Shown here piece after piece: positions 26,029 to 44,903 of a stretch of 46,665 bases of DNA (positions are counted from its first letter, which is position 1; every line of letters begins with the position of its first letter). Both the position numbers and the translations under genes were made by a program. Origin of the DNA: a virus. The notes beneath the pieces are model-generated. The model was given only the letters and a program-made list of their open reading frames with translations. It searched no databases and had not been told where the DNA came from. Location: positions 1-46,665 of IMG/VR virus record IMGVR_UViG_3300030685_000038; one strand, 5' to 3'.

Positions 26029-26939
26029 AATTATACATCGCAGGATATTATACCGCAAATTTTGAAAAAAATTCTACCGCGTATAATAAACTCGATGGTG
26101 CGGAAAAAATAATGCACGACTCAGCCCCGAACCGGCTTGAGTCGTACTATTATATCAATAATCCGAAGGTTATTGAACGCATCCGAGCCAATGGGGAAAA
26201 GATCTTCCTCGACTCGGGGGCGTTTTCTGCATTCACCAAGGGGGCTAAAATCGAAGTAAAAGATTATGTGGCGTATATAACTAGAAATTTAGATGTTATC
26301 GAACGAGCGGATGGAACCATCATGGCATCCGTACTTGACAGCATCGGGGATGCTTACAAGACCTACTGCAACCAGAAAGAAATGGAAGGGATGGGACTTG
26401 CTCCGTTACCTTGCTTCCATTATGGGGAAGACGAACGCTATCTAGAATACTACGTTGCCAATTATCCATATATAACTTTGGGAGGAATGGCAGCGGTCAG
26501 TACTTCTTTAATTCAAATTTGGTTAGACCATATTTGGTCGAAATATCTTACCAATGCGGATGGCACCGCAAAATTGAAGGTGCATGGCTTCGCTATCACT
26601 ACCCCTTCGATCATGCGGCGATACCCTTGGTATTCGGTTGACTCTTCTTCCTGGGTGAGAATCGGTATGACCGGAGGTATCATCCTTCGTAGAAACCAAA
26701 AGGTTATCGCCATATCGAAAACGTCACCTAGTAGGAAATCGGCATGGCAGCATATCGACACCCTTCCTCCTATGGTGAAGGAAAACGCACTAGCGGAAAT
26801 AAGGCAATACGGGGTAGATCCTGAACGCTTGAAGGAAATCCAATATGCCCGATGGGCTTTCAATGCTGGTATATTTTCATTGATCGAAAAAGATTGTACT
26901 GTGGATAAATTCTCTCAGTATGAAGTGGGGTTCTTCTAA
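26025..26939 (+). CDS. dpdA: DpdA-like DNA guanine transglycosylase
   Basis: Phage DpdA proteins, relatives of tRNA-guanine transglycosylase, exchange guanine in DNA for a 7-deazaguanine base. This 304-residue product has FLDSGAFSAFTKG (residues 61-73), matching the conserved Asp-Ser-Gly substrate motif. Further features are a VLDSIGD segment with a second Asp, a TLGGMA strand, and SVDSSSWVRIGMTGG, which I associate with phage DpdA2-type proteins. It directly follows the four preQ0 synthesis genes with an ATGA overlap, which strongly supports the role. I see no QueF-like or other tailoring enzyme nearby, so the base inserted may be preQ0 itself. Confidence 0.82.
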   Translation: MKLYIAGYYTANFEKNSTAYNKLDGAEKIMHDSAPNRLESYYYINNPKVIERIRANGEKIFLDSGAFSAFTKGAKIEVKDYVAYITRNLDVIERADGTIMASVLDSIGDAYKTYCNQKEMEGMGLAPLPCFHYGEDERYLEYYVANYPYITLGGMAAVSTSLIQIWLDHIWSKYLTNADGTAKLKVHGFAITTPSIMRRYPWYSVDSSSWVRIGMTGGIILRRNQKVIAISKTSPSRKSAWQHIDTLPPMVKENALAEIRQYGVDPERLKEIQYARWAFNAGIFSLIEKDCTVDKFSQYEVGFF

Positions 26940-27892
26940 TGCTGCAAGCTCTAAAATTCGTTAAAGGTGCCATAGCAAAACGAGATTTTGCACCAATCTT
27001 GACCCACTTTGGTATCAGTGAAGGCCGAATCGTCGGCTATAATGGACTACTCGCTCTGTCTTCTCCAATCAATTTAGATCTGGTAGTGAATCCAAAGGCC
27101 GATGTTTTCATAAACGCTATCTCGAATTGCTCAAATCAAGTCCAAATAACCCAACTCCCTTCCGGGAATATCTCGGTGAGATCCGGTTCTTTCAGGGCCA
27201 CGATTCCATGCGATCCAAGCCCATTTCCTGAAATAAGAATCGGTGGAACAACTCTCACAGTGGAAGCACCTATTCTTCCGGCCTTGCGAGCCGTAGAACC
27301 TTTCATTTCCGAAGACGCCAGTCGCCCTTGGAGCCGAGGGGTGCTATTTCGGGGGAAGAGTGCATTTGCAACTAATAACGTTTGCATTGTAGAGTATTGG
27401 ATCGGTTGCCATTCCCCAGTCGAATTCTGCATTCCATCGGATGCAGTGGCCGAAATGCTTCGTATCGGAGAAGAGCCGCAAACAATGGAGATCACCGAGT
27501 GTAGTTTAACCATTCGATATTCAAAGGATCGCTGGCTATTTACGTCCACAGTTGAAGGCAAGTGGCCGGATGTATCTGGTATTTTGGACCGCTATGATCT
27601 ACATCCGACTTCTATCCCGGCCACCTTCTTCGATGCACTTCGGATGTTGAAAAACTTTGTTCCGAAAGACGGCACCTGTCGATTGGAAGATGGCAAAGTC
27701 GCAGCGGGAGCGGATGATAATACCGAAGGCGAGGTTGAGATTCCGGATCTTCGTGGCTCTGGAAAATACGCTTGGCGCTATCTTACCCTTTTAGAAGGAA
27801 TGGCTACCAAGATTGATTTTACTTCCCCTCCTTGCGGATTTGTAGGAAAAAATCTTCGAGGATTAATTTCTGGTTGGTCTAATGAGAACTGA
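26939..27892 (+). CDS. DNA polymerase sliding clamp (beta-subunit-like)
   Basis: The 317-residue product resembles the bacterial beta clamp: an N-terminal LQALKFVKGAIAKRDFAPILTHF similar to the first clamp domain. Internal strand patterns follow (GNISVRSGSFRATIPCDPSPFPEI, in two parts; FCIPSDAVAEMLRIG), then TSTVEGKWPDVSGIL, like the family's VEGKFPDY segment. It would tether the adjacent family B polymerase to DNA. It starts at TAATG with dpdA and overlaps the polymerase start. I see no clamp loader gene in the window, so the host loader is probably used. Confidence 0.8.
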   Translation: MLQALKFVKGAIAKRDFAPILTHFGISEGRIVGYNGLLALSSPINLDLVVNPKADVFINAISNCSNQVQITQLPSGNISVRSGSFRATIPCDPSPFPEIRIGGTTLTVEAPILPALRAVEPFISEDASRPWSRGVLFRGKSAFATNNVCIVEYWIGCHSPVEFCIPSDAVAEMLRIGEEPQTMEITECSLTIRYSKDRWLFTSTVEGKWPDVSGILDRYDLHPTSIPATFFDALRMLKNFVPKDGTCRLEDGKVAAGADDNTEGEVEIPDLRGSGKYAWRYLTLLEGMATKIDFTSPPCGFVGKNLRGLISGWSNEN

Positions 27893-29888
27893 TAATGTTG
27901 GTTTCTTTTGGGCTGACGCCTTTGAAATAAAGGTCAAAAAAGAAGCCAAACCGGTAAAAGTTATTCCTGAAAAAGTATGGCTAAACGATGATTATTTGCC
28001 CGGCTTGGCCCAGGCAAAAGCAATGCCCGGAATGAAGTTCTTAAATAATGAGGAACTTATCCAACTGCGAGCATCCGGTGATCGAATGCTTTTTGACATT
28101 GAGTGCTACCCAAATTATTTTTTAGCGTCTTTTAGATCGTATTTGACCGGAAAAGCAATTTACTTTGAACTTGGAGGGAGCAAAGAGTTTGAGCCGGAAA
28201 TGGTCAGATGGATATTAACTAACTTTACTATTATCGGATTTAATTCTTTGAACTACGATTTGCCGATCGTTTCTTTGGCAATAGCTGGCAAATCAATGGA
28301 GAAACTAAAGCAGGCTACTGATGATATTATTTTGCGAGGTATGCGTCAACATGAAATAATGCGAAATTACAAAACTAAGTTAATTCAGTGCGATATGATA
28401 GACCTTATGGGGCTTACCCCGCTGGCCCCGAGTCTAAAGACCTGCTCTGGCAGATTGCATACCCCTAAGATGCAAGACCTTCCATTCGAGCCGTCCAAAA
28501 TTTTGAACGATGACCAAAAAGCAATTGTCAGATGGTATAATCTAAACGGAGATCTCACCGCCACCGGATTTCTTTACCACAGGCTCAAATCTCATATCGA
28601 ACTGCGCGAAGCGATGTCCGCAGATTATGGAATGGATCTTCGGAGTAAATCGGATCCCCAAATTGCAGAAACCATAATTGGAGCCGAGTATACCAAGATC
28701 ACTGGCGAGCGACCTACTAGATCGGAGGTATCTATAGGGGCTGTCCACAGGTATGCCCCACCCGCATTTATCCAATTCCAAAGCCCCCTTTTGCAATGGG
28801 CATTCAAGGCCATCACTGAGGCCGAATATATCGTCGATGATAAGGGCAGGATAGGCTTGCCAAAGGCCGTGAAGGCTCTTAAACTGGAAATAAATGGCAG
28901 CATCTATCGAATGGGCATCGGCGGCTTGCATTCAAGCGAAAAATCCTCCTGCCATGTAGCTACGGATTTGGTCGAATATCACGATCTCGATGTGACTTCT
29001 TATTATCCTAGAACCATTCTGAATAGTGGATTATTTCCTCTAAATCTAGGGCCACTATTTCTTCGGATCTATGATGGGATTGTAGTAAAACGAGTCCATG
29101 CAAAGGAAGTGCATATTAAGGTTACTGCCAATGGCCTAAAAATCGTAATTAATGGCACTTTTGGCAAAATGGGTAGCAAATACTCCATTATTTATGCACC
29201 AGCCCTTTTGATTTATGTAACCCTTACGGGGCAATTGTCTTTGCTCATGCTCATTGAAGCATACGAGTTAGCTGGACTTCATGTGATAAGTGCAAATACC
29301 GATGGTATTATCATCGAATGCGCCAAATCTCAGGTAGCCTTGATGAATGAAATCAAGGCTCGGTGGGAAAGTATAACTGGTTATGAAACCGAAGAAACCA
29401 GCTATAAAGCAGTCTATTCCAGAGATGTTAATAATTACATAGCCATCAAAACCAACGGCGAAGCAAAATGCAAAGGGGTGTTCTACAACCCTTTTCTTGA
29501 CGAAGATCCACGAAAGGCACTAGAGCATAACCCAAGCAATACGATATGTTCAGATGCGGTGGTAAATTATTTAACTAAGGGAATCCCGCTAAAAGATACT
29601 ATTGAAGGGTGCAAAGATATAACCGCTTTTCTCACAGTACGTAGGGCTAAAGGCGGGGCGGTAAAGATCTGGGAAGACGGGCGAATCGAATATCTGGGAA
29701 AGGCGGTTCGCTGGTATTATTCTACCGAAGCGAAAGGCGCTATAATCGGCGCCGAAAGCGGCGACAGAGTTGCCAATACCGAAGATTCAAGGCCGGTGAT
29801 GGAGCTTCCACAATGCTTCCCGGAAGATGTGGATATTGCCCGCTACATCCAGGAGTCTTCCGAAATGCTGACCGATTTAGGATTGTGA
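27882..29888 (+). CDS. Family B DNA polymerase with 3'-5' exonuclease domain
   Basis: The 668-residue enzyme replicates phage DNA. Exonuclease motifs are MLFDIECYPNYF (Exo I, D-x-E) and GFNSLNYDLPI (Exo II). Polymerase motif A is DLDVTSYYPRTIL, motif B KIVINGTFGKMGSKYS, and motif C ISANTDGIIIE. In motif C the usual D-T-D reads N-T-D, keeping the second Asp; this variant is, as I recall, common in siphophage polymerases. The gene overlaps the clamp gene by eleven bases. Its stop overlaps the stop of the converging tail-tip gene by 12 bases, leaving no room for a terminator between them. Confidence 0.9.
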   Translation: MRTDNVGFFWADAFEIKVKKEAKPVKVIPEKVWLNDDYLPGLAQAKAMPGMKFLNNEELIQLRASGDRMLFDIECYPNYFLASFRSYLTGKAIYFELGGSKEFEPEMVRWILTNFTIIGFNSLNYDLPIVSLAIAGKSMEKLKQATDDIILRGMRQHEIMRNYKTKLIQCDMIDLMGLTPLAPSLKTCSGRLHTPKMQDLPFEPSKILNDDQKAIVRWYNLNGDLTATGFLYHRLKSHIELREAMSADYGMDLRSKSDPQIAETIIGAEYTKITGERPTRSEVSIGAVHRYAPPAFIQFQSPLLQWAFKAITEAEYIVDDKGRIGLPKAVKALKLEINGSIYRMGIGGLHSSEKSSCHVATDLVEYHDLDVTSYYPRTILNSGLFPLNLGPLFLRIYDGIVVKRVHAKEVHIKVTANGLKIVINGTFGKMGSKYSIIYAPALLIYVTLTGQLSLLMLIEAYELAGLHVISANTDGIIIECAKSQVALMNEIKARWESITGYETEETSYKAVYSRDVNNYIAIKTNGEAKCKGVFYNPFLDEDPRKALEHNPSNTICSDAVVNYLTKGIPLKDTIEGCKDITAFLTVRRAKGGAVKIWEDGRIEYLGKAVRWYYSTEAKGAIIGAESGDRVANTEDSRPVMELPQCFPEDVDIARYIQESSEMLTDLGL

Positions 29889-32800
29889 AGTTATATCTAG
29901 CTCCGCACTAGTGCCAGATACTCCAAATGCGGATATCGGAGTAGCGACCATTCTTATCGTTGTAAGATCGGCCTGATTGTAGAATGCCTCATCTATTCGT
30001 TTATCCAAACGATACACCTTAAAAGCGTTTGCCAAATTGGTTCGATCAGTAGCGGTAAGATCGTAAGGGGTATCATCAGAAGATTTGGTCCAGATAAACA
30101 AATGATGCTTAGAATTGTTTTCAGTTCCAGAAAAGTATTTACCTATAAAGCAACGCCCGGCTGTACTGGGAATAATGCTATTGCCAAGCGCGTTAAGGAA
30201 TCCGATTGGCACATAGGTTAATGCGTTTTCTTCATCCACGCTAACTAGCCTAGTAAGACATCCAATAAGATTGCCATTCAATGCATCGCTAATAGTTGAA
30301 GTAGCCTTTTGCATGAATCCAACTATTAAGGTTCTGTCAGAAAGCAAAACCGAATCTCCCGGAGCGTGGCTATCAGAAGCATCCCCCACTATGGCCCAAC
30401 CGCGTTCATCCAAACCGGCTTCCATAAAGCCCCAGTTAATTTTTGCGTCTGGATAATCTAGTATGACCGCCGTCAAAGTTATGTATTTCTTTATCGAAGT
30501 TAAACCGTATAGAGAGGTCCAATAATCAGACAATCCCGGGTTAAACCCTTCGGAGGTTGAAGTAATTGAAATGGGAGTAGTTGCCGTTGGGGAATCGTGG
30601 ACCAATAGCATAAGATTAAAAGCATAGCTGTCTGTGCTTTTCAAAATCAAAGCGGGTTTATCATGACCTTCAATTGATGGATTAGGATCTTGGTTTAGGT
30701 ATGGAAAAATAGATCCCCCCGTTAAAAGGGATTTCCACAATACCCCGGCGGCGATAAGATCGGCTTTTGTGAATGTGAGAAATCCTTTATCATCGGTAAT
30801 TTTAGTTATAGTTACTGATGAGGCATCCGCCATAGCGGCTACCAATTGCAGAGTGGTTGGACCTGAAATAGCAGCATCTATCCTAATCTGGATTTGGGAT
30901 GATGTTTTAGAAGTGATATTGTGCAAAAAGGTTTTAGTTCCGGTATTATCGGCGACCGCAGCGGCGATAGGGTATACGGATTCTCTATCTCCGGAAATGT
31001 TGGTAGATCCGTATATTTCCACAATGTCGGTAACTTCCGCTTCTAATTCGGGGCCAACTATAGAGAGCACTAACGCGGTACTGGTTTCCTTAGAAGAATT
31101 CACTATTCCTCTCCAAAAAGAAAGCGAACTGGTGGCATTTCCTTCTACTTTTATTTCCAAAATTCCAGTGCTGGTCGGAATATAGACTGACCCGGTGTAA
31201 TTAGGAATAGAGATCCAATCCGGATTAGCCGGAGTATCGACGATAGATGGATCTAAATTGATGGAAGCGGTCAAAGCGAGGTATCGGTAATAGGTAGTGA
31301 CTAGGGAAGAGGTGGGATAGTACGCACGCATGGAATTTGACGAGTCTGATTCTAACTTTATCCAGGGGATTTCAGAAAGAAGCACGTACGCGATTCGATC
31401 TTCTCCCGGGTCAGGAGCAGTTGCCATATCGTACGCGAATACGTTGGAATCGTAAGCAATGGCTTCTACCGATATTTTTCCATCGTTCAGTTGAGAAGAA
31501 GTAACTGTGAAAGTTTTTGAAAATTCCGACTCTGGACCAATCGCATAAATTATTGGCAACTCGGTCATACTAGAAAAATCGATAGGGCAAGAAGAAGGGA
31601 TAACTATCACACTATTGGAACTGGAGTATAAAAATGTGCATTTTACAGGACCATAAACGTCGCCATTTGATTTCCGAAGAACTACCCAGAGAGATTCGTT
31701 TATATCAGAAGGAATAACGCTATCCGGGACTTCATCTGACAATGTTAGTTGTAGATCTTGCCCTATCCTAGTTGCTGAAATGATTACTCCAGATGATACC
31801 CAGGCCGGAAACGGCCATTGTACCATTATTACATCTCCGAGCAAAGGGATTAATCCATCTAGTCCACAAGTAAAAGTTACCGAATCTCGTTGAAGCACCA
31901 ATTTTTGGTATTGATACGCTGCCAATCTCCAAGCGAGTTGCCGATCTGAAACCCCTGAAAGAGTAACTTCTTTTGTATTTACCGCTTGAGATCCGGGTGG
32001 GGTAAACTGAATGGTGGCCTGTAGCCCAGTATCCGGGTCTATGTAGGCAGCGGATACGCTATCGTATTCCAAATTGGTGGTAAAAGAACTAGATAGGCTT
32101 AAATCAGAAGCATTATCTGGAGTAAATAAGGTGACTGGAATTATATTAGGTTTATCTATAGCAACTCTAAAATCGGAACCTACCACAAACAGAGAACCTT
32201 TGAAAACCGAAGCAGCGGAATTACACGCTTCAAATACATTGGTTTTATTGGTAAATACCGCATCGAAGTTCTCTGAAATTTCAGAAGCTAGTTTTTCCCA
32301 GTAAGAAAGGTCTAAAGAATCCCAAGTAAGGTTCCCCCCTTGCGGAGAAGTGAGCATGTCCACAATAGCCCAAATCGGAGATCTTGTTTCTATTACAGCA
32401 GTGGACTTTATCCCGTTAGTGCTCTGAAACAAAAGCCTTTGGCTAATAATGTTTATTTTGGAAGCAGAATCAGTCCCAATGCTATTTGATCCGGTTAAAG
32501 TTACCTTCAATAAAGATACTTCGGTTTCTTTATTGGAAAATGCTTTTCCATATACCGCACTTAAAGAAACTGCATCCGATCCAGTAGTTCCCGCTTTATT
32601 AGTTCTTCGGACACTGACTTCATATCTTCCAGAAGGTACTGATAGAATCTCGGTAAACCGTTGCGGGGTTACCTGATTTGAAGTATAACTTACCGAAGAG
32701 ATAACCCAATCTTCACGAGGATTGCCATATCGGTCTATTAGCCTATATCCGATTCTGATTACTACGGTAGCATTTATCGCATCCCCAGTAGCAGAGTCAA

Positions 32801-33578
32801 CCCCATACAGCCCTCCACCAAAAGAAAAATTTATTTGGATGGTATCTATAGAACAATCGGCTGGTGCAATTACAGTCGAAATAGTTTCGTATTTAGTCGA
32901 ATCAGAAGCGGCCAAATCGACGTCGGTTTTATCTCCTAGATAAACGATATCTTGAAAATCGCCTTCCGAAGCGCTGGGATTGTGTCGATAAGGAGGGAAT
33001 ACATGATAGGAACAACCTGGAATCGTAGAGATATCAGTATCTCCGACCATTACCTTTTTAATCGAAAGTTCCCCATAGCCCAGCGAAAGCCAGCAATGCA
33101 AAATCGACACATTGCTCACATATTCTACTGTGGGAAGAGCGAAGAACGATGGATACCATCGGTTTAGCCCATAGGATGCTTCAATAGGTTCGTTCAACTT
33201 CTTAGTATTAGATCGCCCTTGAAATGAAAATACATCGGATGCAGTAGGAAGTCCTCCAGTAACACTAGGGATATCCGACGCCTTCTTTGAGGTTAAAATA
33301 AAATAAGCACTTACTCCAATGGACAAGAGACTTATTGCCAAAGTAGCAATAAGCAGACCGGCCATTCCCGGAAAGACTCTGACTTCGATAGTTTTAGCCG
33401 AAGAATTCCAGTCTTTTCTTAGCAGCGGTATCCCATTTAGGGTGACTATAAAAGGGATGTCAATTAAATCTACTTCTCTTTTCAGCCATTCTACGGCCTC
33501 TTCTACGGTTTTTGCTTCTGGGAATCCGTAGATTCTAGAACTTTTGGCGATGGCGTCAGGATGAAAGATTACTTGCAT
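29877..33578 (-). CDS. Tail tip / central hub protein (gpJ-like)
   Basis: At 1233 residues, this large protein should form the distal end of the tail. Its N-terminal region resembles lambda-type tail-tip proteins. A membrane-insertion-like hydrophobic helix (GLLIATLAISLLSIGVSAYF, about residues 75-95) is followed by GGLPTASDVFSFQGRSN and EASYGLNRWYPSF. The long middle contains beta-sandwich repeats (fibronectin-like strands, TVTSSQLNDGKISVEAIAYD), and the C-terminus is a set of probable receptor-facing domains. It is the last gene of the leftward tail operon. I chose ATG 33578; TTG 33590 is possible. Confidence 0.82.
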   Translation of the reverse strand: MQVIFHPDAIAKSSRIYGFPEAKTVEEAVEWLKREVDLIDIPFIVTLNGIPLLRKDWNSSAKTIEVRVFPGMAGLLIATLAISLLSIGVSAYFILTSKKASDIPSVTGGLPTASDVFSFQGRSNTKKLNEPIEASYGLNRWYPSFFALPTVEYVSNVSILHCWLSLGYGELSIKKVMVGDTDISTIPGCSYHVFPPYRHNPSASEGDFQDIVYLGDKTDVDLAASDSTKYETISTVIAPADCSIDTIQINFSFGGGLYGVDSATGDAINATVVIRIGYRLIDRYGNPREDWVISSVSYTSNQVTPQRFTEILSVPSGRYEVSVRRTNKAGTTGSDAVSLSAVYGKAFSNKETEVSLLKVTLTGSNSIGTDSASKINIISQRLLFQSTNGIKSTAVIETRSPIWAIVDMLTSPQGGNLTWDSLDLSYWEKLASEISENFDAVFTNKTNVFEACNSAASVFKGSLFVVGSDFRVAIDKPNIIPVTLFTPDNASDLSLSSSFTTNLEYDSVSAAYIDPDTGLQATIQFTPPGSQAVNTKEVTLSGVSDRQLAWRLAAYQYQKLVLQRDSVTFTCGLDGLIPLLGDVIMVQWPFPAWVSSGVIISATRIGQDLQLTLSDEVPDSVIPSDINESLWVVLRKSNGDVYGPVKCTFLYSSSNSVIVIPSSCPIDFSSMTELPIIYAIGPESEFSKTFTVTSSQLNDGKISVEAIAYDSNVFAYDMATAPDPGEDRIAYVLLSEIPWIKLESDSSNSMRAYYPTSSLVTTYYRYLALTASINLDPSIVDTPANPDWISIPNYTGSVYIPTSTGILEIKVEGNATSSLSFWRGIVNSSKETSTALVLSIVGPELEAEVTDIVEIYGSTNISGDRESVYPIAAAVADNTGTKTFLHNITSKTSSQIQIRIDAAISGPTTLQLVAAMADASSVTITKITDDKGFLTFTKADLIAAGVLWKSLLTGGSIFPYLNQDPNPSIEGHDKPALILKSTDSYAFNLMLLVHDSPTATTPISITSTSEGFNPGLSDYWTSLYGLTSIKKYITLTAVILDYPDAKINWGFMEAGLDERGWAIVGDASDSHAPGDSVLLSDRTLIVGFMQKATSTISDALNGNLIGCLTRLVSVDEENALTYVPIGFLNALGNSIIPSTAGRCFIGKYFSGTENNSKHHLFIWTKSSDDTPYDLTATDRTNLANAFKVYRLDKRIDEAFYNQADLTTIRMVATPISAFGVSGTSAELDITSQS

Positions 33579-33997
33579 TGTGGATACCAATAGGCAAAAG
33601 TTTGAAATCGTTGATGCAATACGCTTTCGGATTGTCCCACTACCCCTAGTCCGAGCAATGTGTGATAGTATACATCATTTGCATATATTGCCACATGAGT
33701 TACCGACCCCTTAATTGCTAGGGTGACAATTGAAAAAGGGGCCTTGTCTCTAGCCCTTTGAAAATCTATCGAAGCGGACTCCTTTATCCCCTCTTCAAAG
33801 AGCGTGGCAGGGCGATCATTAATCGAGTAAAGCCAATCAGGAAGAGCTATGCCCCCGGCTGAATAGGCCCAAGTGATAAGCCCCCAACAATCAAATGCAA
33901 GAGGCCCTCTTGCTCCGACTTTCCAAGGCTTTCCGATAGCTAAGGTCAAAGCTCTAGCTACGCAATCCCGGAAATACGGAGTAGCTATAAATGCCAT
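33569..33997 (-). CDS. NlpC/P60-family tail-tip peptidase
   Basis: The 142-residue product has the NlpC/P60 catalytic Cys in LAFDCWGLITWAY and the His in VTHVAIYANDVYYH. Such enzymes sit in the tail tip and cut peptidoglycan stems during DNA injection. Order fits lambda-type tail tips: DUF1833 protein, NlpC/P60, then the hub. The lambda homologue gpK carries an additional JAB domain that is absent here. I chose ATG 33997; a TTG at 34018 would add seven residues. It overlaps the upstream gene by 44 bases and has no ribosome site, suggesting coupling. Confidence 0.85.
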   Translation of the reverse strand: MAFIATPYFRDCVARALTLAIGKPWKVGARGPLAFDCWGLITWAYSAGGIALPDWLYSINDRPATLFEEGIKESASIDFQRARDKAPFSIVTLAIKGSVTHVAIYANDVYYHTLLGLGVVGQSESVLHQRFQTFAYWYPQCK

Positions 33998-34451
33998 GAG
34001 GAAACCTTTGGTTAACAATATCAGGTACTGTAGCTTGAAAACTTACCGAGCTAAGAGTGGCCGTTGCGGACGATAGCTCTAATTTAATAGGTCTTGGATT
34101 CTGTGGCGCTGAGTATGTTTCAATATAAGTTCTATAATACAAATAGGTAGGAGTGGTTTTTGCTTTGATTAGATTTATAGTTTTTATAGCCAGACCATCG
34201 ATGTTGCTTATTGAAATAGTCATTGCTGAGTACCCGTCAGCCGACTGCTTTGGAAACTGTATTTTGAATGGGGCCGGTGTCCAAATCACAGAAGTGGTGC
34301 CATCTTCTAGCAAAGTGGTTCTTTTCTTTAACCCAGAACAATAGCACAACCTAGGATTGATGTCAATCATTATGGTTTCAAAAATTTCCAAGGCATCGTC
34401 ACAAGAGGCGTAGGCTTCTTGCAGGGCATCAGTAAGTATCGGGTTACTCAT
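33954..34451 (-). CDS. DUF1833 family tail protein
   Basis: The 165-residue product shows the DUF1833 pattern: an early EIFETIMIDINPRLCYCSG strand, then a APFKIQFPKQSADGYSAM segment. Next are SNIDGLAIKTI and a C-terminal RFPHGIYSYSVFPGL, where FP...Y...FPGL is characteristic. These proteins connect the distal tail to the tip complex. Position between the FISUMP-bearing tail protein and the NlpC/P60 gene is as expected. It starts at an ATGA overlap. Confidence 0.82.
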   Translation of the reverse strand: MSNPILTDALQEAYASCDDALEIFETIMIDINPRLCYCSGLKKRTTLLEDGTTSVIWTPAPFKIQFPKQSADGYSAMTISISNIDGLAIKTINLIKAKTTPTYLYYRTYIETYSAPQNPRPIKLELSSATATLSSVSFQATVPDIVNQRFPHGIYSYSVFPGLRS

Positions 34452-36202
34452 TGGTTATCCACAATCTTGATTGTATTCCAGTTGCTTATCTTCCCCCCGC
34501 CATAAACGCACCAAGTATAGGTGTCATTTGGCAGATTTTCGCCCATATAAATTGTACCAGTAGTAGAAGAGGCGAAATTAAAATGCCAATCGCTTTGTGC
34601 GACTAAAACTCCATCCGAAGAGAAAGCCACTGAAACCGAATTTGAAGAAAAAATTCCACTAATAGGTTGGCTATGACCTTTCCATCCTGATACTTGAGAT
34701 ACGCTAGTGATTCGTTGAAGATCGACTATCAATCCTGATAATTTTATTTGGCCTAGACAATTAGTTACCGAAAATTCTATTTTCCCAGTTAGGTTAAGAG
34801 AGCAACCTTGAATATCAAAAATAGATGTGATAAATTTCTTTCTCCCGCAGTCAGTTACTTTCCACCACCAAGCGATGAACTGGGATAGCATATCCAAACT
34901 CATAGAAGCGGTTAGCGAAATTGTAGTTCCTATGCTGCGTTCTATCAGTTGTGCGAAATACGGATCGTCTATGGAAAGGATGGTATCGGTAGATACCTTA
35001 GACAGGTCTGAATTTGCAGCGATTGGGAAAGGGCAAACCGGCAACTCTCCGGATGATAAAACTATTTCGGGAAGTTTAGAAGTAGGAAGTTCTAATACCG
35101 CTTTGACCGGAAAGGTCAAAGTAGCACCCCTTTCCAAGGGAGCGATTTTATATTGCCCGGTTATATAGGCGTCTATTTTGGATAACCCAATCGGAAATAC
35201 CGGATATTCAAAATAGCCAGTAGGTCTATCCATATACATTCGCAGCACCTTGGACAGTTCTTCGGCAGTATAGGTATATGCAAATGAAGAAGAAAATACT
35301 GGGTCTCCTATTGCAAGATTCCTACGGATACGCCCGGTGGTAGGAGAAAACGACTTGGATTCCAAAATCATTTGAAGCGATACCCCGTCATCCGGAAACC
35401 GGCTTTCGCCCGATTCTGATCCCGGATCGGGGTTAATCCAAGGGACAATGCTGTACTCAAAGATGGCTATTTCGCTAGACTGCCCGTCTTTTATTGCAAT
35501 TGCCTTCAAGGTAAATGCTTTTAGTAGCAATATCGGGCCAGTGGAACTGCTTGCAGAAGGGGTGGATCCATCGGTGGTATAATAAAGTACTGCACCCTCA
35601 GTTACACTTTCCAAAGAGATGACTTGATATTTGTCATACATACCGGACGAAGGGGTAGCGGTCGGAGAAGCTATCGGGGGCGGGGCCGTATCTACAATAC
35701 ACCGAAGCGACATGCCGTTCGACTTGTCGAAGTCGCTGCGGAACATGAGGGGGTCGCCGTCGTCGACGGCCCGGCTCCAGGCGTTGAACGCAATATACTC
35801 GGAAGACGACCAGAAGAAGGCGACGTAGCTGAGGTTGCCGAACGTCCCGTCGCTGAAGCGGAGGCCCGCCGGCAGAGCAGAGAAACCATAGTCGTCCGTA
35901 CCAGTATTCGTAAGCCAAAGGGAAGAATTTGCTTTTAGTTTCGTGCCGGCTACATCTTCTCCGATAGCCGTGGTTAAAGCGGTCCACTCAGCATCGGTAG
36001 GAATATGGCACCCGGGAGGGCAAGCGCTTGCAAGATCATCCCAAGGGTATAAACGCCCATAGATAGCTTCATTGATAGGATCATCGTTATAGGTGTGACT
36101 ATTTGCAGAAGCGTAGGATAGATTCTTAGTGAACCACCACTTACCATCGAGCATTTGGACGCATGGATATATTTTACCATCGCGGGGATCAGTGAAGTCC
36201 AT
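34448..36202 (-). CDS. Distal tail protein with N-terminal FISUMP domain and a putative hypervariable segment
   Basis: The 584-residue protein has three parts. Residues 1-171 form a FISUMP domain (FTDPRDGKIYPCVQ, GRLYPWDDLASACPPGCHIP, DAEWTALTTAIG, GTDDYGFSALPAGLRFSDG, FFWSSSEY), a C-type-lectin-like fold named from Fibrobacter. Residues about 176-255 match a chitobiase/HEX C-terminal repeat (GAVLYYTTDGSTPSASSS). The rest (from about 260) looks like a distal tail protein (ERGATLTFPVKAVLELP). Residues about 109-168 are encoded by a sharply GC-richer segment whose codons nearly all end in C or G. The domain is likely displayed at the tail tip for receptor binding. It follows the tape measure gene. 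Confidence 0.85.
   Translation of the reverse strand: MDFTDPRDGKIYPCVQMLDGKWWFTKNLSYASANSHTYNDDPINEAIYGRLYPWDDLASACPPGCHIPTDAEWTALTTAIGEDVAGTKLKANSSLWLTNTGTDDYGFSALPAGLRFSDGTFGNLSYVAFFWSSSEYIAFNAWSRAVDDGDPLMFRSDFDKSNGMSLRCIVDTAPPPIASPTATPSSGMYDKYQVISLESVTEGAVLYYTTDGSTPSASSSTGPILLLKAFTLKAIAIKDGQSSEIAIFEYSIVPWINPDPGSESGESRFPDDGVSLQMILESKSFSPTTGRIRRNLAIGDPVFSSSFAYTYTAEELSKVLRMYMDRPTGYFEYPVFPIGLSKIDAYITGQYKIAPLERGATLTFPVKAVLELPTSKLPEIVLSSGELPVCPFPIAANSDLSKVSTDTILSIDDPYFAQLIERSIGTTISLTASMSLDMLSQFIAWWWKVTDCGRKKFITSIFDIQGCSLNLTGKIEFSVTNCLGQIKLSGLIVDLQRITSVSQVSGWKGHSQPISGIFSSNSVSVAFSSDGVLVAQSDWHFNFASSTTGTIYMGENLPNDTYTWCVYGGGKISNWNTIKIVDNQ
35701..35880 (-). other. Putative diversity-generating variable region (VR-like)
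   Basis: By hand count 115 of these 180 bases are G or C (about 64%), against 35-40% in the 60 bases on each side. On the coding strand, most residues between about 124 and 159 use NNC codons with unrelated first two bases (for example CTC AGC TAC GTC GCC TTC; GTC GAC GAC GGC GAC CCC CTC). This is what AAC codons in a template repeat become after adenine mutagenesis. Fixed words remain between them (SSSEY, AW, KSNGMSLRC). The position at the C-terminal end of a C-type-lectin-like domain matches known DGR targets. Confidence 0.65.
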
Positions 36203-36203
36203 A

Positions 36204-39131
36204 TTAGCCCCTTTTTACTCCATATGTGCGTCTAAAAGTGGTATCCAGGGCGGATCCTCCGGCGATTATACCAGCAGAAAGTTTTTTCTCAACCGCATCA
36301 ATGATGACCTGAATAGAGCCATCTTGCCCTTGCGAAGTAGATACCGAAGCTCCTGCGTAATTATGAATGTTTACCACAGGGGCTTTGCTTCCTAGCAGAT
36401 CCGCGGTATCTTTTACCGAAGTTACATGGGCTGGCCCTTGGATGATTTCGGGTTGGCCTGTCTCACCCGCGATACCATAACTACCGGCTGGAATATCGCC
36501 GCCATCCTTGAACACCCCGCTATACGCCAAGGAATTGATATTGGAAACGATTGCAGCACCGCTGGTCATAACTGCGGCAACATTGGCGAAGTTACCAGGC
36601 CAAGGGGTGTTCCAAGCCTTTGCAGCAGCGTCAGCAAGCTGCAAACTGGCATCGGCAATAGCAAATGCCTTGGATGTGGCAAACAGGGTTTTGTAAGCAG
36701 CACTCCCCTTACCTTGGACATTTCCTACCAAATCCGCTATTGAATTGGTAAGAGTCTCGGCAGCAGATGCAACGGTATGGGTGACCTCTTTCCAAAACTC
36801 GATCTGTGCATTTTTGCGTTTAGCTAAGATATTTGCTTCGTATTGTCTAGTTTGCTCTAAGATCTCTCGCTCTTTGGCGGCAGCTTCTTCTTGAGCATTC
36901 AAAGTTTCTTGACCGCCTTGATCGCCGCTTATTTCTCCGGTGGCGGTACGCTTATCTATACTTGCTTCGGTAGCGGTTAATTGCTTTTTATTTGTTCCAA
37001 GCTGGATAGTTTTCGATTGTTCTGCAACGCTCTGTTGCTCATCATAAGTCCTATTTATTTCAGTAGGACTCTTAAAGCTCTTCTGCGACCAATCTTCATC
37101 ATTTAGTTTAGCTTTATTAACAATCCTTTCATTCGATTCCGTTATTTTGGTTTCAATCTCTGCAATTTTGGAATTAACCTTATCCAGTCTGTCTTGCAAA
37201 GACTTATCGGCGAGCTGGTCGGCCTTTACTTGCGCCTTTGCTTGTTTCAAATAGATAGCGTCGATCTTTTCGTTAGCAGAATCCCAGATCTGCACTTCCT
37301 TTTGGGCCTCTTGCTGTGCAGCTTCTTCCCGGAGCCTGTGGTTACCATGGGCATCTTCTAACTGTCTTGCGTATTTATCTTTTGCAAGACTGATTTCCTT
37401 TTCAGCGGTAGCCTGTATTTTAGCTACCTCATCCTGCTCTTCTACTGTGAGTCTATCGTTATTATCTTGAGTTCCTAGTTTCCGATAAGCGGTCAAGCTA
37501 TCTTGGTATTGCTTTTCGGCTTTCAAAGAAGCGTTATTGGTTTCTAGTTCCTTGGCAAGCCTTTCTTGGTCGGCTTTGGCTTTTCTGGCAGCTTCTTTAG
37601 CGGCTTTGTCCGCTGCTTCTTTAGCCGCTAGCTCATCGGCAGCTTTCTTCCTAGCTGCTTCCCTGGCAGCGTCAGCAGCATTGTCCGCTGCTTCTTTGGC
37701 TTTGTTTTCTGGTGTATTTGATACTCGATAATCATAATTAGCCATAGCCGTTTTTAGCTTTTTGGCTTGGTCTGCATCGGTATATCCGCTGGTTTGCGTT
37801 CCGACAAGACCGGCGCTAGCGGTATATACTACCGAGGTCTTGGAAAGCTGGTCATTGGTTAAGTTTTTCTTGACCTTGTCCTCATAAGTATCTCTAGCAA
37901 TTGCCTCTTTGTTTTTGGTCAACCGATGTTCAAGTCGCTCTAAACTTTCGGTTATCCCATTCAAGAACCCTTTAGTCCATTCTGTATCCACAAGTGCAGC
38001 TTTGAATCTGCTCCATGCAGTTTCAGTATTCTCTAAATCAGAGCGAAGTGTTTCCCCTGCTTTAGGTAGTAGCTCCATCTGCTTTTCCATGTCGGAGATG
38101 AACTGAGTTGCCCCGATATGCATTTTACGGATGGCTTCAACGCTAGAAGTGCCATAAGCATTTTCCATCAATTGAGCAAGTTGTGGCATGGAATCTTTCA
38201 TCCAGCGCACATCCTGTTGCATTACCTTTCCGTTAGCGATCATTTGAACGGTCTGTTCTAGGACCCGATCAAATTGGGTCGATCCTCCACCACTCAAGGC
38301 CACTGTGTTTGAAAAATCTACGATCACCCTTTTAGCAGCAGTAGCACTTTCTCCAACTGCTCTTAGTTTAAGATATGCCTTTTCCGCCCCTTCCATTTCA
38401 ATACCGGGAGCTTTAGCAATCACGTAAAGGTCTTCTATCGCTTTGGAAGCATTTTTGGCAGATCCTTCCATATTGATCAAACCGATGGATAGCTGTTCCC
38501 ACTTGGCAGCTTGTTCTATGCAATCTGCGTAGGCATTGCCAATTGCACGTACTGTTTGGGCTACCTGTTGAAAAATATAGATCGACGCAGAAGCTTGAGT
38601 CAAACTGGCGGTTCTAGCAGCTGTAGCGGCTTTTTCAGCATCTATGACGGCTTGGGCGGCTTCTTTTTCGGCAGTTTCTTTTTCTTTTAATGTACTTTTC
38701 CACCAGCTTACATAATTGGAATTGGCCTCTTTTTTGGCAGCGGCTTCTTCCTGAGCAGCTTGTTTAGCAGCGGCGATCTGTTCTCGTGCGGCTTGCTTTG
38801 CTACAGCCGCTTCTTCCTGTGAGGCGGCTTTTGCGGAAGCCACATCCGCCTTGGCTTGGATAGCGGCCCAATCAGATTCTTCCTTCGTAGCGGCTTTCTT
38901 TTCAGCTAGTAACTGATTTGTAAGCGCTCTCTCTTGGGCCAATCGCTCTGCTCCGGCGCGGGATTCGATCCTTTGGATATCATCAAGTGTTTTTTGGCGA
39001 GTATCTTTGGCAGAAAGCCAAGCCTGTAGAACTTCGCTATTAGCTTCCAGAGCCGAAGACTTAAACGAAGAAAGGTCACTCTTAGTATCAGAGAGGCCTT
39101 GTGTTTTGAAATTTAGGATTAGGTCAGCCAT
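36204..39131 (-). CDS. Tape measure protein
   Basis: The 975-residue protein sets tail length and occupies the tail lumen. It is rich in Ala, Lys and Glu with long coiled-coil stretches (QEEAAVAKQAAREQIAAAKQ; AADKAAKEAARKAKADQERL). It has a tape-measure N-terminal core near residues 190-360 (LSGGGSTQFDRVLEQTVQMI, MKDSMPQLAQLMENAYG) and a hydrophobic region near 850-880. The C-terminal segment (AGETGQPEIIQG) matches the end of many tape measure proteins. It follows the frameshifted tail chaperones and overlaps them by eight bases. From its length, a tail of roughly 140-150 nm is expected, by the usual rule of thumb. Confidence 0.92.
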   Translation of the reverse strand: MADLILNFKTQGLSDTKSDLSSFKSSALEANSEVLQAWLSAKDTRQKTLDDIQRIESRAGAERLAQERALTNQLLAEKKAATKEESDWAAIQAKADVASAKAASQEEAAVAKQAAREQIAAAKQAAQEEAAAKKEANSNYVSWWKSTLKEKETAEKEAAQAVIDAEKAATAARTASLTQASASIYIFQQVAQTVRAIGNAYADCIEQAAKWEQLSIGLINMEGSAKNASKAIEDLYVIAKAPGIEMEGAEKAYLKLRAVGESATAAKRVIVDFSNTVALSGGGSTQFDRVLEQTVQMIANGKVMQQDVRWMKDSMPQLAQLMENAYGTSSVEAIRKMHIGATQFISDMEKQMELLPKAGETLRSDLENTETAWSRFKAALVDTEWTKGFLNGITESLERLEHRLTKNKEAIARDTYEDKVKKNLTNDQLSKTSVVYTASAGLVGTQTSGYTDADQAKKLKTAMANYDYRVSNTPENKAKEAADNAADAAREAARKKAADELAAKEAADKAAKEAARKAKADQERLAKELETNNASLKAEKQYQDSLTAYRKLGTQDNNDRLTVEEQDEVAKIQATAEKEISLAKDKYARQLEDAHGNHRLREEAAQQEAQKEVQIWDSANEKIDAIYLKQAKAQVKADQLADKSLQDRLDKVNSKIAEIETKITESNERIVNKAKLNDEDWSQKSFKSPTEINRTYDEQQSVAEQSKTIQLGTNKKQLTATEASIDKRTATGEISGDQGGQETLNAQEEAAAKEREILEQTRQYEANILAKRKNAQIEFWKEVTHTVASAAETLTNSIADLVGNVQGKGSAAYKTLFATSKAFAIADASLQLADAAAKAWNTPWPGNFANVAAVMTSGAAIVSNINSLAYSGVFKDGGDIPAGSYGIAGETGQPEIIQGPAHVTSVKDTADLLGSKAPVVNIHNYAGASVSTSQGQDGSIQVIIDAVEKKLSAGIIAGGSALDTTFRRTYGVKRG

Positions 39132-39465
39132 TATAGCACTCCGTCCTCAAGCTCTGGTAGATATAATCAAGATGTCTTAGAACTTCTACTTCCCAAGGCG
39201 AAACGGATTCGTTCATAAGAATAACCCAATTTCTTATCTCGGTGAAAGTTAATGGTTCTGAACCGATTAAATCTCTACTCCATCGAAACAGATATTCTAG
39301 TTTGGGCGGGCACTTCGGCAGTTCTAAATCGGGAGGAATTTTTCCAGTAGTTTTTTGAACTTGCTGGTATTGTTTCCTCCTTGACAATTTTGATCCCTTG
39401 GGAGGGAAGTCTAACCAATACACCTTCTTGGCGAAGGTGTATAACTCGGTTAGACCGCAGCGTCC
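39124..39465 (-). CDS. Tail assembly chaperone extension (T part), made by -1 frameshift
   Basis: This frame has no need of its own start: reading -1 from the slippery site at 39465-39471, it continues GRCGLTELYTFAKKVYWLDF and ends after ECYNG at 39124. The fusion product would be about 241 residues, like lambda gpGT, which binds the tape measure protein during tail assembly. The C-terminal part has a conserved-looking LFRWSRDLIGSEPLTFTEIR. An independent start at 39423 gives 99 residues but has no good ribosome site. It lies immediately upstream of the tape measure gene, as expected. Confidence 0.75.
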   Translation of the reverse strand, partial: GRCGLTELYTFAKKVYWLDFPPKGSKLSRRKQYQQVQKTTGKIPPDLELPKCPPKLEYLFRWSRDLIGSEPLTFTEIRNWVILMNESVSPWEVEVLRHLDYIYQSLRTECYNG

Positions 39466-39471
39466 AAAAAA
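39418..39471 (-). promoter_or_regulatory. Programmed -1 ribosomal frameshift site with downstream hairpin
   Basis: On the coding strand the heptamer T TTT TTG (39471-39465) is in the correct phase for a -1 slip (X XXY YYZ). The zero-frame stop (TAA) lies four codons further. A perfect 10-base-pair hairpin with a five-base loop (ATACACCTTC at 39418-39427 with GAAGGTGTAT at 39433-39442) begins about 22 bases downstream of the slip and could stimulate pausing. Confidence 0.8.
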
Positions 39472-39854
39472 CCTTTCCGATCGTAAACGAAACGATCCAG
39501 ATCATCGGCCACATGTGGGCAATCATGTAGCCATGCCTTGAAGGTAGCGGTATCGAAAGGAACCGGGATTTTGGTGTCGCTGGATCCATCCGAAACAGGG
39601 GCATCTTGGACAAAAGACCAGCCGACCACCGTTTCTCCAAGAAAATCAAGACGAGCTTCGGCATCCTTAGCCGGATCTTCCTTGTCGGTTTCCACAAGCG
39701 CTCTGCGATACTTGGCGCGAGCGGTCATAACCGCGGGATGATAGTAGCCCAGAACCGAGAGGGTTTCGGTAGAGATGGTACCATCCGGAAGAGCCAAGGG
39801 CATCTTGTGCGGAGTTGAAAACTTCTCGGCAGAATTGAAATCAGAAAGGTTCAT
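39450..39854 (-). CDS. Tail assembly chaperone (G part)
   Basis: The 134-residue zero-frame product starts at ATG 39854 (MNLSDFNSAEKFSTPH) and ends in KGFLDAAV just after the slippery heptamer. It contains a mixed alpha/beta middle (GTISTETLSVLGYYHPAVMT) and an acidic C-terminal half. Its place between the tail tube and tape measure genes, plus the frameshift, identifies it as the short tail chaperone. The start lies beside the tail tube stop; a longer start at 39896 would run into the tail tube gene. Confidence 0.82.
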   Translation of the reverse strand: MNLSDFNSAEKFSTPHKMPLALPDGTISTETLSVLGYYHPAVMTARAKYRRALVETDKEDPAKDAEARLDFLGETVVGWSFVQDAPVSDGSSDTKIPVPFDTATFKAWLHDCPHVADDLDRFVYDRKGFLDAAV

Positions 39855-39855
39855 G

Positions 39856-40776
39856 TTAAACTCCGGTGGCGCGAGTGATAGACAATTGAGTGCCATCCGT
39901 AGGAGAAAGCACCGCTTGGAAATTCATGGTTGCCAGAACTGCACCAGCGCTCGACACATCGGGCTGACCAGACGTGTATTTCAGGTTGGGGAGCGAGAAG
40001 GTGTAGGAGGAAGAACCGTTTGAAAGCTGGAAAGAAAGCGAGGTTGACGATTCGGCCAAGAATTTCTCGAAGAGAGCGGTACTCTCGAAATAGGCCGAAA
40101 TGGAACCGGACACATCGCTCACCCCCTGCTGAGGATGCAAAGTATCCTTGGAACCCAGAACGAACTTGCGATCCATTCCGTTATCCAATTTCATTTGCAC
40201 TTCGGTGACAACCGCGATAGCAGAGCCACCTTCACTGATAGTTCCGGTGAAAGCGTCCATGACTGGAACCGAAGACGCAGCATCGAACGTTGCTCCTGTC
40301 GGTGCCGCGGTGGCAATGGCAAAACCTTTGCCGATTACATCCGCACTGTAGGTGGCAATTTTTCCAGCGCTTGCGGTGATGCTAAGAGTGCTGAACTCTC
40401 CACCGTTCAAAAGCATCCATGCCTTTTCGGTGTTTGCCATATCCTCGAAGTGGCGAAGGAAAGAAAAAGATCGACGGGTAGTTCCAACTTTCAGAACATT
40501 CTCGGTCCAGGTGCCACCCAAAGTGGCTTCGAGAAAGGTCTGGAGTTCCGGATCCATTGAAAGCTCACCGGTGATGGCCCCGCCCACCTTGTTTTGGCCC
40601 AAGCGAAAATCGGCGATCTGGCGATCCGACCGAAGTTCCGAAGACTTCAAAGAATCTTTGGTGATGCCAAGAGTGCAGGTGACGTACCTGCATTTCTTGA
40701 ACTCTGGGGTGGTGGGAGTCACCGCATAAGCGGCTTCCGGGATGTGGAATAGGGAATGCCGACTACCATCTGCCAT
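39856..40776 (-). CDS. Major tail tube protein
   Basis: The 306-residue product begins MADGSRHSLFHIPEAAYA with PTTPEFKKCRYVTCTLG soon after, typical of the Phage_tube_2 type. It has alternating beta strands (GAITGELSMDPELQTFLEA, DVSGSISAYFESTALFEKFL). The C-terminus ends in a strand-rich FQAVLSPTDGTQLSI, as in other tube proteins. Regular GC-rich codons suggest high expression. The ATG at 40776 overlaps the preceding stop as TAATG; the frame upstream to 40836 is not needed. Hexamers of this protein should stack to form the tail. Confidence 0.85.
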   Translation of the reverse strand: MADGSRHSLFHIPEAAYAVTPTTPEFKKCRYVTCTLGITKDSLKSSELRSDRQIADFRLGQNKVGGAITGELSMDPELQTFLEATLGGTWTENVLKVGTTRRSFSFLRHFEDMANTEKAWMLLNGGEFSTLSITASAGKIATYSADVIGKGFAIATAAPTGATFDAASSVPVMDAFTGTISEGGSAIAVVTEVQMKLDNGMDRKFVLGSKDTLHPQQGVSDVSGSISAYFESTALFEKFLAESSTSLSFQLSNGSSSYTFSLPNLKYTSGQPDVSSAGAVLATMNFQAVLSPTDGTQLSITRATGV

Positions 40777-41204
40777 TATACTGCCCCTCGCGTTAGATAT
40801 GCTTTCCAGTAAATCGAAATATCCGCACGGTACCAAGTATCGACAATGCGGCCTAAATTCGCATCACACTCAACAATATGCGTTTCTTGCTCTTCAAAGA
40901 TAAGTCTTTTTCCAGCAATAAAGGACTTTCTAAATGTATCGACAGCTTTAACGCCAACAGAATTTCCAGTATCTAAAGGCAAGTGGATATTTACTAGGAA
41001 TACTCCAGAAAGCAAATCCAGTCCCCCGCTTCCCAAAGTGAATACTTGAGCTTTTCCAGGTTTGAACCATAGTTGTGCCCATGCCGAATTTGAGGTCGGC
41101 CTAGCGGCGTTCTCTGAAATAATTTGAGAATCGACGAATCCAATTTCGACAGATCTCAAAGTCGAAACCGCTGCCTCTCCTAAAGCCTCTCGTATTTTCA
41201 TCAT
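40776..41204 (-). CDS. Tail terminator-like protein
   Basis: The 142-residue product lies directly before the tail tube gene. It has the mixed alpha/beta pattern of tail terminators of the DUF4128 type: an N-terminal helix (MMKIREALGEAAVSTL), strands (FLVNIHLPLDTGNSV) and a C-terminal YRADISIYWKAYL. Such proteins cap the tail tube and join it to the connector. Assignment rests mainly on position and size. It overlaps the previous gene by four bases. Confidence 0.68.
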   Translation of the reverse strand: MMKIREALGEAAVSTLRSVEIGFVDSQIISENAARPTSNSAWAQLWFKPGKAQVFTLGSGGLDLLSGVFLVNIHLPLDTGNSVGVKAVDTFRKSFIAGKRLIFEEQETHIVECDANLGRIVDTWYRADISIYWKAYLTRGAV

Positions 41205-41605
41205 ACTTCACCCCGAGAGCTTGAGAATTTCATTACTAGCCCAGGCCAAGAAGGAAGATTTCTGCGCACCATACCTTCGGGAGCTTTCTTACTGTGGCCA
41301 TCGAACTCAATAGATTCGGAATACGGGAGGGCATTCGAGAAAACGAAATCCTCTGTGCCATCATTTTGAGCAACAATATCAGAAAGCTCTTCTTTCGGCT
41401 CGGCCCCGGATGGATCTATTCTCGGGGTGCTATCCAGGTTCGCTACTCCATTGGAAGACCTCCAAGATCCACGAAGCGCACCGGTAAGGACTGGCGAGTC
41501 ATCGATGATTTGGCCGCAAAGCGCCTTGATAGATGCCCGCTCTATGCCCATCATCATTGATATAGCAGCGTCGCCTTCGTTGGTCAAATCATTTTCCAGA
41601 CTCAT
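41201..41605 (-). CDS. Tail completion / neck protein (HK97 gp10-like)
   Basis: The 134-residue product contains DDSPVLTGALRGSWRSS, the S-P-V-x-T-G-x-L-R-x-S motif typical of HK97 gp10-like proteins that complete the tail-to-head joint. A later NALPYSESIEFDGHSKKAPEG matches the usual N-x-x-x-Y-A/S motif. ATG 41605 overlaps the stop of the upstream gene as ATGA; a longer start at 41617 is less likely. Confidence 0.8.
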   Translation of the reverse strand: MSLENDLTNEGDAAISMMMGIERASIKALCGQIIDDSPVLTGALRGSWRSSNGVANLDSTPRIDPSGAEPKEELSDIVAQNDGTEDFVFSNALPYSESIEFDGHSKKAPEGMVRRNLPSWPGLVMKFSSSRGEV

Positions 41606-41976
41606 CGACGCACCCAAACATCAGTGTAAATAACCAGTCCGCCCGGATTGATCGGAGAACGTTTGAGAATCGCCCAAGTATAACCATCAAATTCCAATTT
41701 ATCAGAATCGGCAATAGTAATCGTTCCGGGGATTAAAACTTCGCGATCCGAGGTCATAATGGAGGAGTTACCAACCATCCGAACATCGGACATTAGTTTG
41801 GCGCTTTGACTAGAAACCACTCCGGAAATTAATTCGGTAGTTTCAACTCCGCTCGGAGCACCTGTTGCGGGATTAATTGGTGGGCAATGATGTAGGATTA
41901 TTCCTACTTTACGGCCAAATTCTTCGATAAGGTCGGTTGCAATCCCTTGGAGATCCGAGTAGAGATCATTACTCAT
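41602..41976 (-). CDS. Head-closure-like connector protein
   Basis: The 124-residue product is strand-rich (VGIILHHCPPINPATGAP, LISGVVSSQSAKLMSDVRMV, GYTWAILKRSPINPGGLVIY). The pattern of a C-terminal WAILKRSPINPGG-like strand is common in head-closure or minor head-tail joining proteins. It sits between the DnaT-like adaptor gene and the gp10-like gene, which is the usual place for the stopper. No catalytic motif. The ATG overlaps the upstream stop by four bases. Confidence 0.62.
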   Translation of the reverse strand: MSNDLYSDLQGIATDLIEEFGRKVGIILHHCPPINPATGAPSGVETTELISGVVSSQSAKLMSDVRMVGNSSIMTSDREVLIPGTITIADSDKLEFDGYTWAILKRSPINPGGLVIYTDVWVRR

Positions 41977-42473
41977 GCTCGTACCGTTTTCAAAGGTCTA
42001 AATCCGCCATCTGCCAAAAGAGGATTTACCAAGCTATCCACAGCCGACATGCGGGTGGCCGCTGCTCGGTTTGCATCGGTGGCATAAGAAACCGAGATAG
42101 AACCTATTTTAGTACTTATGTATTTTCCGGGCCGAATTGTAGGTAGCAACTCCCCGTTTTGAACTTCGATAGCCACCATTGCCTGAGCGATCTTCAAAGC
42201 GGGCGGAATCGTATAAGAATAAACTCCATCAGTTACAGAGAAATATCCTTCTGCCTTTCTAGGCCAAGCTAGGCCCTGACTGCTAGTGGCTTTTGTTCCG
42301 ATATAGTCTTTCAAATCCAGATAGTCTGTTGCTTTCACTAATAGTGGAATACACAAACTATCCTCGGTAGGGATGCTTATAGCCCGATCCGCTGCGAAGG
42401 CACGCAACTCCGCAACAGTGATATAGCTATTTGCACCGGCTATACCGGTACCGTCTTCAACAGTCAGGGCCAT
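41973..42473 (-). CDS. Head-tail adaptor, DnaT-like family
   Basis: The 166-residue product begins MALTVEDGTGIAGANSYITV and has AELRAFAADRAISIP, then LLVKATDYLD and GLAWPRKAEG. This order matches the phage family annotated as DnaT-like single-strand DNA-binding protein, which in head-tail clusters is generally the head completion adaptor. The name reflects weak fold similarity, so a connector role is preferred here from context. It is followed by an ATGA-coupled connector gene. Confidence 0.75.
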   Translation of the reverse strand: MALTVEDGTGIAGANSYITVAELRAFAADRAISIPTEDSLCIPLLVKATDYLDLKDYIGTKATSSQGLAWPRKAEGYFSVTDGVYSYTIPPALKIAQAMVAIEVQNGELLPTIRPGKYISTKIGSISVSYATDANRAAATRMSAVDSLVNPLLADGGFRPLKTVRA

Positions 42474-42475
42474 GA

Positions 42476-42790
42476 TTACTCCTCAGTTGCGGCAATGCCC
42501 AAGGAAGGCGCTTCTTCGGATTTGGTCGTCCAGGGGAGCTTCGCGGCTTCGGCCTTTTGCTCGGGCGTAGAAGCCTCTTCACTGGCGGCTTCCTCTTCGC
42601 CTTCGCGCTTATAGCCGCTCGGGATCAAATCCTCGGAGACAGCCACCGCAAAGCGGTGAGGCTCGGAATTTCCTTCCGAGCGCGCGGAAGCATTCCGGAA
42701 GCATCGGGTGGAGTACTTTTTGGCCAGAGTAGCTTCGGCTTTGGTAGGCGAAGGTCCAGCAATGAAAACTAAAATTTGGTGACTACTCAT
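42476..42790 (-). CDS. Hypothetical small head protein
   Basis: The 104-residue product has an AGGAG ribosome site before ATG 42790. The N-terminus is basic (TKAEATLAKKYSTRCFRNASA) and the C-terminal half strongly acidic and Ala-rich (KREGEEEAASEEASTPEQK). It lies between the collagen-like protein and the adaptor gene, so it is probably virion-associated or an assembly factor. No family recognised. Confidence 0.6.
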   Translation of the reverse strand: MSSHQILVFIAGPSPTKAEATLAKKYSTRCFRNASARSEGNSEPHRFAVAVSEDLIPSGYKREGEEEAASEEASTPEQKAEAAKLPWTTKSEEAPSLGIAATEE

Positions 42791-42802
42791 CTTGTACTCC
42801 TG

Positions 42803-44889: not shown

Positions 44890-44903
44890 TTTGGACCCCT
44901 ATG

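Follow-up and report, generated by a model that had tools for sequence, protein, structure and literature searches.

The tail gene at 34448-36202 of IMG/VR virus record IMGVR_UViG_3300030685_000038 carries a short GC-rich run of NNC codons, and it raises the question of whether this block was written by a diversity-generating retroelement (DGR) and, if so, from which genome. The window analyzed was the whole stretch of 46,665 nucleotides of that record. The parts of the gene were as follows.

34448..36202, minus strand: open reading frame of a 584-aa tail-module gene, with an N-terminal FISUMP domain, a beta-hexosaminidase-C/Fn3-like linker, and then the C-terminal part
35696..36145, minus strand: FISUMP (Fib_succ_major) domain, residues 20-169 (Pfam PF09603, E 3.5e-23)
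35708..35875, minus strand: putative DGR variable repeat, codons 110-165, marked by an abrupt change of codon use (segmentation and alignment to two template repeats)
35471..35653, minus strand: CHB_HEX_C_1/Fn3_assoc linker after the block, residues 184-244 and extending to about 250 (Pfam PF13290 for 184-244, and PF13287)

The gene product scored 83.3 bits with PF09603 against a gathering cut-off of 33.9, which places it in the FISUMP family. Its gene lies between those of the tape measure (36204-39131) and a minor tail protein, phrog_396 (33954-34451), and the FISUMP domain is most likely at the tail tip, as a putative binder of a host surface receptor. The predicted C-type-lectin-like nature of the domain carrying the block rests on PF09603 and on the match of its segment to two genuine cassettes described below. 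A sequence search of the PDB gave no match, and AlphaFold models, with a mean pLDDT of 44 for the domain and 33 for the full protein, were too poor and were left aside. No relatives of the C-terminal part of the 584-aa protein were detected.

The limits of the block were determined by segmentation of the gene. The best two-break segmentation gave a third-position GC of 0.946 in codons 110-165 in comparison with 0.400 in the remaining gene, and the gain in log-likelihood was 35.1, as against at most 10.9 among 60 permutations. When third-position C was considered, the block covered codons 113-163 (0.73 vs 0.22 outside). Among 26 other phage genes checked, none contained a comparable block, and the highest third-position GC of any 55 codons was 0.76. 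About 72% of the codons in the block were NNC, including 26 of the 36 codons for residues 124-159, which bears out the NNC coding reported for these residues in the preliminary description. The sharp GC-rich block that it had placed in this tail gene was also confirmed, with a GC content of 0.622 in 35710-35889, but the 35-40% GC given there for the flanks was too low, the measured values being about 0.43-0.51.

FISUMP is an established target domain of DGRs (PMC4159848, PMC8143477), as had been stated in the preliminary description. A search with a FISUMP template pattern led to a genome of the Bacteroidota (G158), which contained two genuine FISUMP cassettes, each with target, avd, template, and reverse transcriptase stub in this order.

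Cassette L056 of G158: target 203-2482, avd 2549-2899, template 3067-3244, reverse transcriptase stub 3278-3415
Cassette L082 of G158: target 8015-8770, avd 7575-7946, template 7246-7423, reverse transcriptase stub 6857-7207

In both cassettes the reverse transcriptase was cut down to an N-terminal stub, and the G158 assembly held no intact RVT_1. In the first (C5) cassette, 26 of the 39 differences between template and variable repeat were at template A, and the remaining differences are probably the result of decay. The reverse transcriptases of two other genomes (G533 and G597) had a group II intron-type look, with QGSPLSP or QGGVISP motifs and no template nearby, and were rejected. Similar NNC/NNT variable repeats occurred in genomes of the class to which G158 belongs (16/391 with a match to the template).

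The variable repeats of G158 covered the same FISUMP segment as the block, with about equal start and end residues, and the homologous segment here was codons 113-171 (35690-35866). Codons 113-168 were aligned with 56 template columns, of which 22 were AAC or AAT in both templates. At these columns 20 of the 22 codons of the phage gene ended in C, in comparison with 17 of 34 elsewhere (Fisher p = 0.0014), and the difference remained when the test was limited to residues able to end in C (p = 0.0033); the templates in this test were those of the related G158 cassettes, not the cognate template of the block. Only 3 of the 22 codons were unchanged AAC, while positions 1 and 2 carried mixed bases. 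The AGC serines 117, 125, 143, and 156 all lay within the block, three of them at AAC/AAT template columns, whereas the serines in its fixed words were encoded by TCN. The DGR origin proposed in the preliminary description was thus supported, in that genuine FISUMP cassettes vary the same segment and have AAC/AAT template codons at the NNC sites. However, the codon evidence for such an origin, which comes from overlapping tests on sequence with p values of about 0.001-0.03, is moderate in strength, because ordinary GC-rich FISUMP genes favour C too.

The codon use of the fixed part of the block differed from that of the phage. The fixed codons, that is, those not at template A, had G or C in third position in 29 of 34 cases, in comparison with 210 of 525 in the gene remainder (binomial p = 7e-8). 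No 34-codon window of the other phage genes attained this value, and the phage overall had a third-position GC of 0.46. The template would therefore be foreign. Phage codon use (46/109) was seen in the N-terminal portion of this FISUMP domain, so the segment, rather than the whole domain, appears to be foreign. Both ends of the block coincided with ends of known FISUMP variable repeats. The ends and the foreign codons together fit either cDNA of a template outside the genome or recombination limited to the repeat, while the foreign codon use is hard to reconcile with the loss of a cassette that once belonged to the phage.

The preliminary description had taken the window for an almost whole genome, and a near-twin contig showed that it is complete. 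The contig IMGVR_UViG_3300028856_000008 (26,794 bases) consisted of window 29392-46665 followed by 8 bases (TTTTATCT) and window 1-9512; reading across these 8 bases closed the portal open reading frame with a normal stop. Because the twin bridges the window ends and completes the portal gene, the window can be described in one line.

1..46665, no strand: whole phage genome, lacking 8 bases at the join (bridged by the twin contig; total about 46,673 bp)

The order of the backbone was terminase, portal, scaffold, capsid, tail, queuosine genes, and polymerase. The hosts of backbone relatives were mainly proteobacteria, with a cyanobacterium, whereas the FISUMP DGRs found here were from Bacteroidota. 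Within the backbone, genes for QueE, QueC, QueD, and FolE and a DpdA/TGT-like gene stood in a row (22947-26939); by analogy with BcepGomr and Me-ZS1, they are likely to serve 7-deazaguanine modification of the phage DNA. A 31-base tandem duplication, 97% identical, was present in a short open reading frame between queE and queC (23802-23863). At 8200-9200 there was a region of about 1 kb that was AT-rich, laden with repeats, and poor in genes, with a 68-base inverted repeat (9020-9087 and 9111-9178, 79%); this region is perhaps a replication origin.

Apart from the putative variable repeat, no component of a DGR was detected in this genome. A search of the whole phage in six frames with PF00078 gave no match at E<=10, and the N-terminus of the G158 DGR reverse transcriptase gave none in the window. 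PF05635, used for avd, likewise had no match in the phage at E<=10, and the avd of G158 was not found in the window. No template copy was found in the window, even when template A was allowed to match any base, and BLAST returned the block alone. These searches agreed with the earlier observation that neither a reverse transcriptase nor a second copy of the block was visible in the window. Since the genome is complete, the reverse transcriptase, avd, and template are missing from the genome itself and not merely from a fragment.

We also looked for the template outside the phage, in 2.9 million viral contigs of IMG/VR and in 84,980 genome representatives of GTDB, using patterns in which a template A was permitted wherever the block carries another base. 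In IMG/VR, exact searches with the 3' end of the block and with the template-compatible patterns matched the twin contig alone. A search of IMG/VR with AACAACGCNTGGAACCGG gave one unrelated DGR template and chance matches; that template repeat was common to two viral contigs, 3300036546_000226 and 3300036466_000088 (L005 and L009), both with avd-like and reverse transcriptase genes. The exact template-compatible patterns found no template in the 84,980 genome representatives, where the lone match, in Moheibacter, was due to chance and encoded no FISUMP. BLAST of the block against about 385 Bacteroidota genomes gave short chance matches, the best of which lay outside any FISUMP gene, and no cognate template was found in phage or plasmid records. 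Thus the near-identical segment that the preliminary description had proposed to seek in host and related phage genomes had no match in the viral, genome, phage, and plasmid sets, and its suggestion that the host, a prophage, or a co-infecting phage may provide template and enzyme in trans was not backed by a matching template in IMG/VR or the GTDB representatives; such searches are blind to a somewhat different fixed sequence and to an unsampled host.

Whether the block is being diversified now was examined with the twin contig, which was the only close relative in the collections and the only one found by either the tail gene or the tail tube protein. The block was 100% identical in the twin, while elsewhere, over about 26.8 kb, there were differences at 9 single sites and across a 77-base stretch. 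The comparison between relatives that had been suggested earlier therefore showed no variation in the block in a pair that differs elsewhere, and differences were not concentrated in the repeat of this single pair, which is possibly one population. Because the block is identical despite the other differences, current diversification is not supported, and there is some evidence against it. In the Bacuni phages, which have a live FISUMP DGR, 18 of the 24 differences between two phages were in the variable repeat (PMC8143477). BPP-1-type DGR targets need a hairpin 3' of the variable repeat (PMC3240598), and no stem of >=5 with a loop of 3-7 was present in 35600-35730, although such a hairpin is not known as a requirement for all DGR groups. 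The 77-base stretch (7788-7864, within 7784-7866) was at the start of a small open reading frame after thyX, where about 30 bases differed from the twin, with equal length and identical flanks in both. An inversion was tested there and ruled out, and the difference is probably an allelic exchange in a small protein.

We consider it likely that codons about 110-168 are an orphan DGR variable repeat whose template came from outside the phage. AAC/AAT template codons would have been rewritten to NNC across a surface patch of the FISUMP (C-type-lectin-like) domain by a retroelement outside the phage, with a GC-rich foreign genome as the source of the template. The patch may have entered by retrohoming in trans when the phage infected, or resided with, a cell or prophage that carried a DGR, or else through recombination with a target gene already diversified; we infer both the manufacture by a DGR and the route of arrival. 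Since the retroelement machinery is missing here, the patch probably owes its origin to another genome, which either made it or served as the source of the copy. A counterpoint to a DGR origin is that the repeat is at codons 110-168 of 584, and not at the 3' end of the gene, where DGR variable repeats usually lie. The alternative to a DGR origin, which the preliminary description had also raised and which we hold to be somewhat unlikely, is that ordinary recombination with a GC-rich FISUMP gene supplied the patch, with NNC as a mere effect of GC-rich codon use. In its favour, GC-richness extends to the fixed codons of the block, as noted above, and Bacteroidota commonly have FISUMP genes, which also occur in phage contigs with no visible DGR. 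As a separate observation, one viral contig of IMG/VR (3300012920_000072) had three large genes in succession, each containing FISUMP domains at its end or close to it. GC-rich control FISUMP genes reached 60-70% C-ending codons at the variable columns (21/30 in L046 and 20/30 in L040), but this is only part-way to the 26 of 31 of the block, which was the highest share among 38 FISUMP sequences. Codon use by itself would also leave unexplained the clustering of C-ending codons at real AAC/AAT template columns (p 0.0014-0.003), the use of AGC for all template-column serines and TCN for fixed ones, and the match of both patch ends to known variable-repeat ends.

The DGR origin has two branches, which overlap with it as a whole and differ in whether writing continues. 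That the block is a frozen relic has somewhat less than an even chance: the phage would have captured an already diversified FISUMP segment when recombining with a target gene of a bacterium or prophage, or would have lost its own cassette, with plain inheritance since. That the twin has an identical block speaks for this, as do the broken reverse transcriptases beside the FISUMP targets of G158, which show that cassettes decay, and the conserved flanking words GFSALP and RC, which could permit homologous exchange. However, recombination must then have ended by chance at both limits of the variable repeat, and loss of its own cassette leaves the third-position GC of the fixed codons (29/34, against 0.40-0.46 for the phage) unexplained. 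Active diversification in trans, in which the tail gene would now be undergoing rewriting by a DGR located in the host chromosome, in a resident prophage, or in a co-infecting phage, appears unlikely. It would be in keeping with a complete genome that lacks the machinery, with fixed block codons foreign to the phage, and with an NNC pattern so nearly undecayed (20/22) as to suggest recent writing; moreover, DGR action between loci inside one genome has been reported in Thiohalocapsa PB-PSB1 (PMC10907252), and the BPP-1 DGR was functional when supplied on a plasmid (PMC3240598). Against it are the same block in two assemblies differing elsewhere, the contrary pattern of the live Bacuni DGR, the lack of a matching template or enzyme in any collection searched, and the absent downstream hairpin. 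Action in trans is no more likely than a captured relic. We regard as quite doubtful the further proposal that a lytic phage has the DGR landing site alone and that, in the course of infection, host or prophage DGRs act in trans to rewrite the tail domain with which it binds its receptor; if true, a bacterium's own hypermutation system would feed diversity to its predator.

DGRs are usually described as self-contained cassettes, and surveys begin from the reverse transcriptase, so that targets without one are invisible to them. A large DGR survey states that remote targets would escape it (PMC8144416). A complete phage that lacks the machinery and yet carries a tail segment that is foreign-coded and template-patterned is a candidate for the use of a DGR across replicons, or else for the recombinational spread of diversified binding patches. 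A search for NNY blocks in phage tail genes, instead of for reverse transcriptases, would reveal how frequent such cases are.

In comparison with known systems, the backbone and gene order were those of siphophages like BcepGomr and Me-ZS1, which have 7-deazaguanine genes and a Gp13-like capsid; in BcepGomr the scaffold and capsid genes directly follow the portal, in agreement with the order here. However, tblastn of the tail gene against the phage collection found no relative in BcepGomr or Me-ZS1, while three other phages matched. The Bacteroidota FISUMP DGRs, both the G158 cassettes and the human-microbiome examples (PMC4159848), have the target domain and the domain segment in common with the block. 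The AAC/AAT template columns of the G158 cassettes match the NNC codons here, and their repeats are 178 bases long in comparison with about 170. Cassettes of the G158 type have avd, template, and reverse transcriptase (as a stub) beside the target and a C-terminal variable repeat, whereas this phage lacks all three and its block is in the N-terminal third of the tail protein. The Bacuni phages of Bacteroides uniformis are siphophages with DUF1566/Fib_succ_major targets and a variable segment in a putative adhesion protein, as here, but they have a complete live cassette, variation between isolates, and a repeat at the 3' end of the gene (PMC8143477). Thiohalocapsa PB-PSB1 has remote targets with no reverse transcriptase or template at the locus, as in this phage; its own genome also contains the matching template, and the variation was measured (PMC10907252), whereas here the template would be on another replicon. 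A DGR variable repeat in a FISUMP domain is thus known, and what is unusual is a complete siphophage without the machinery that has a foreign-coded repeat in the N-terminal third of its tail protein.
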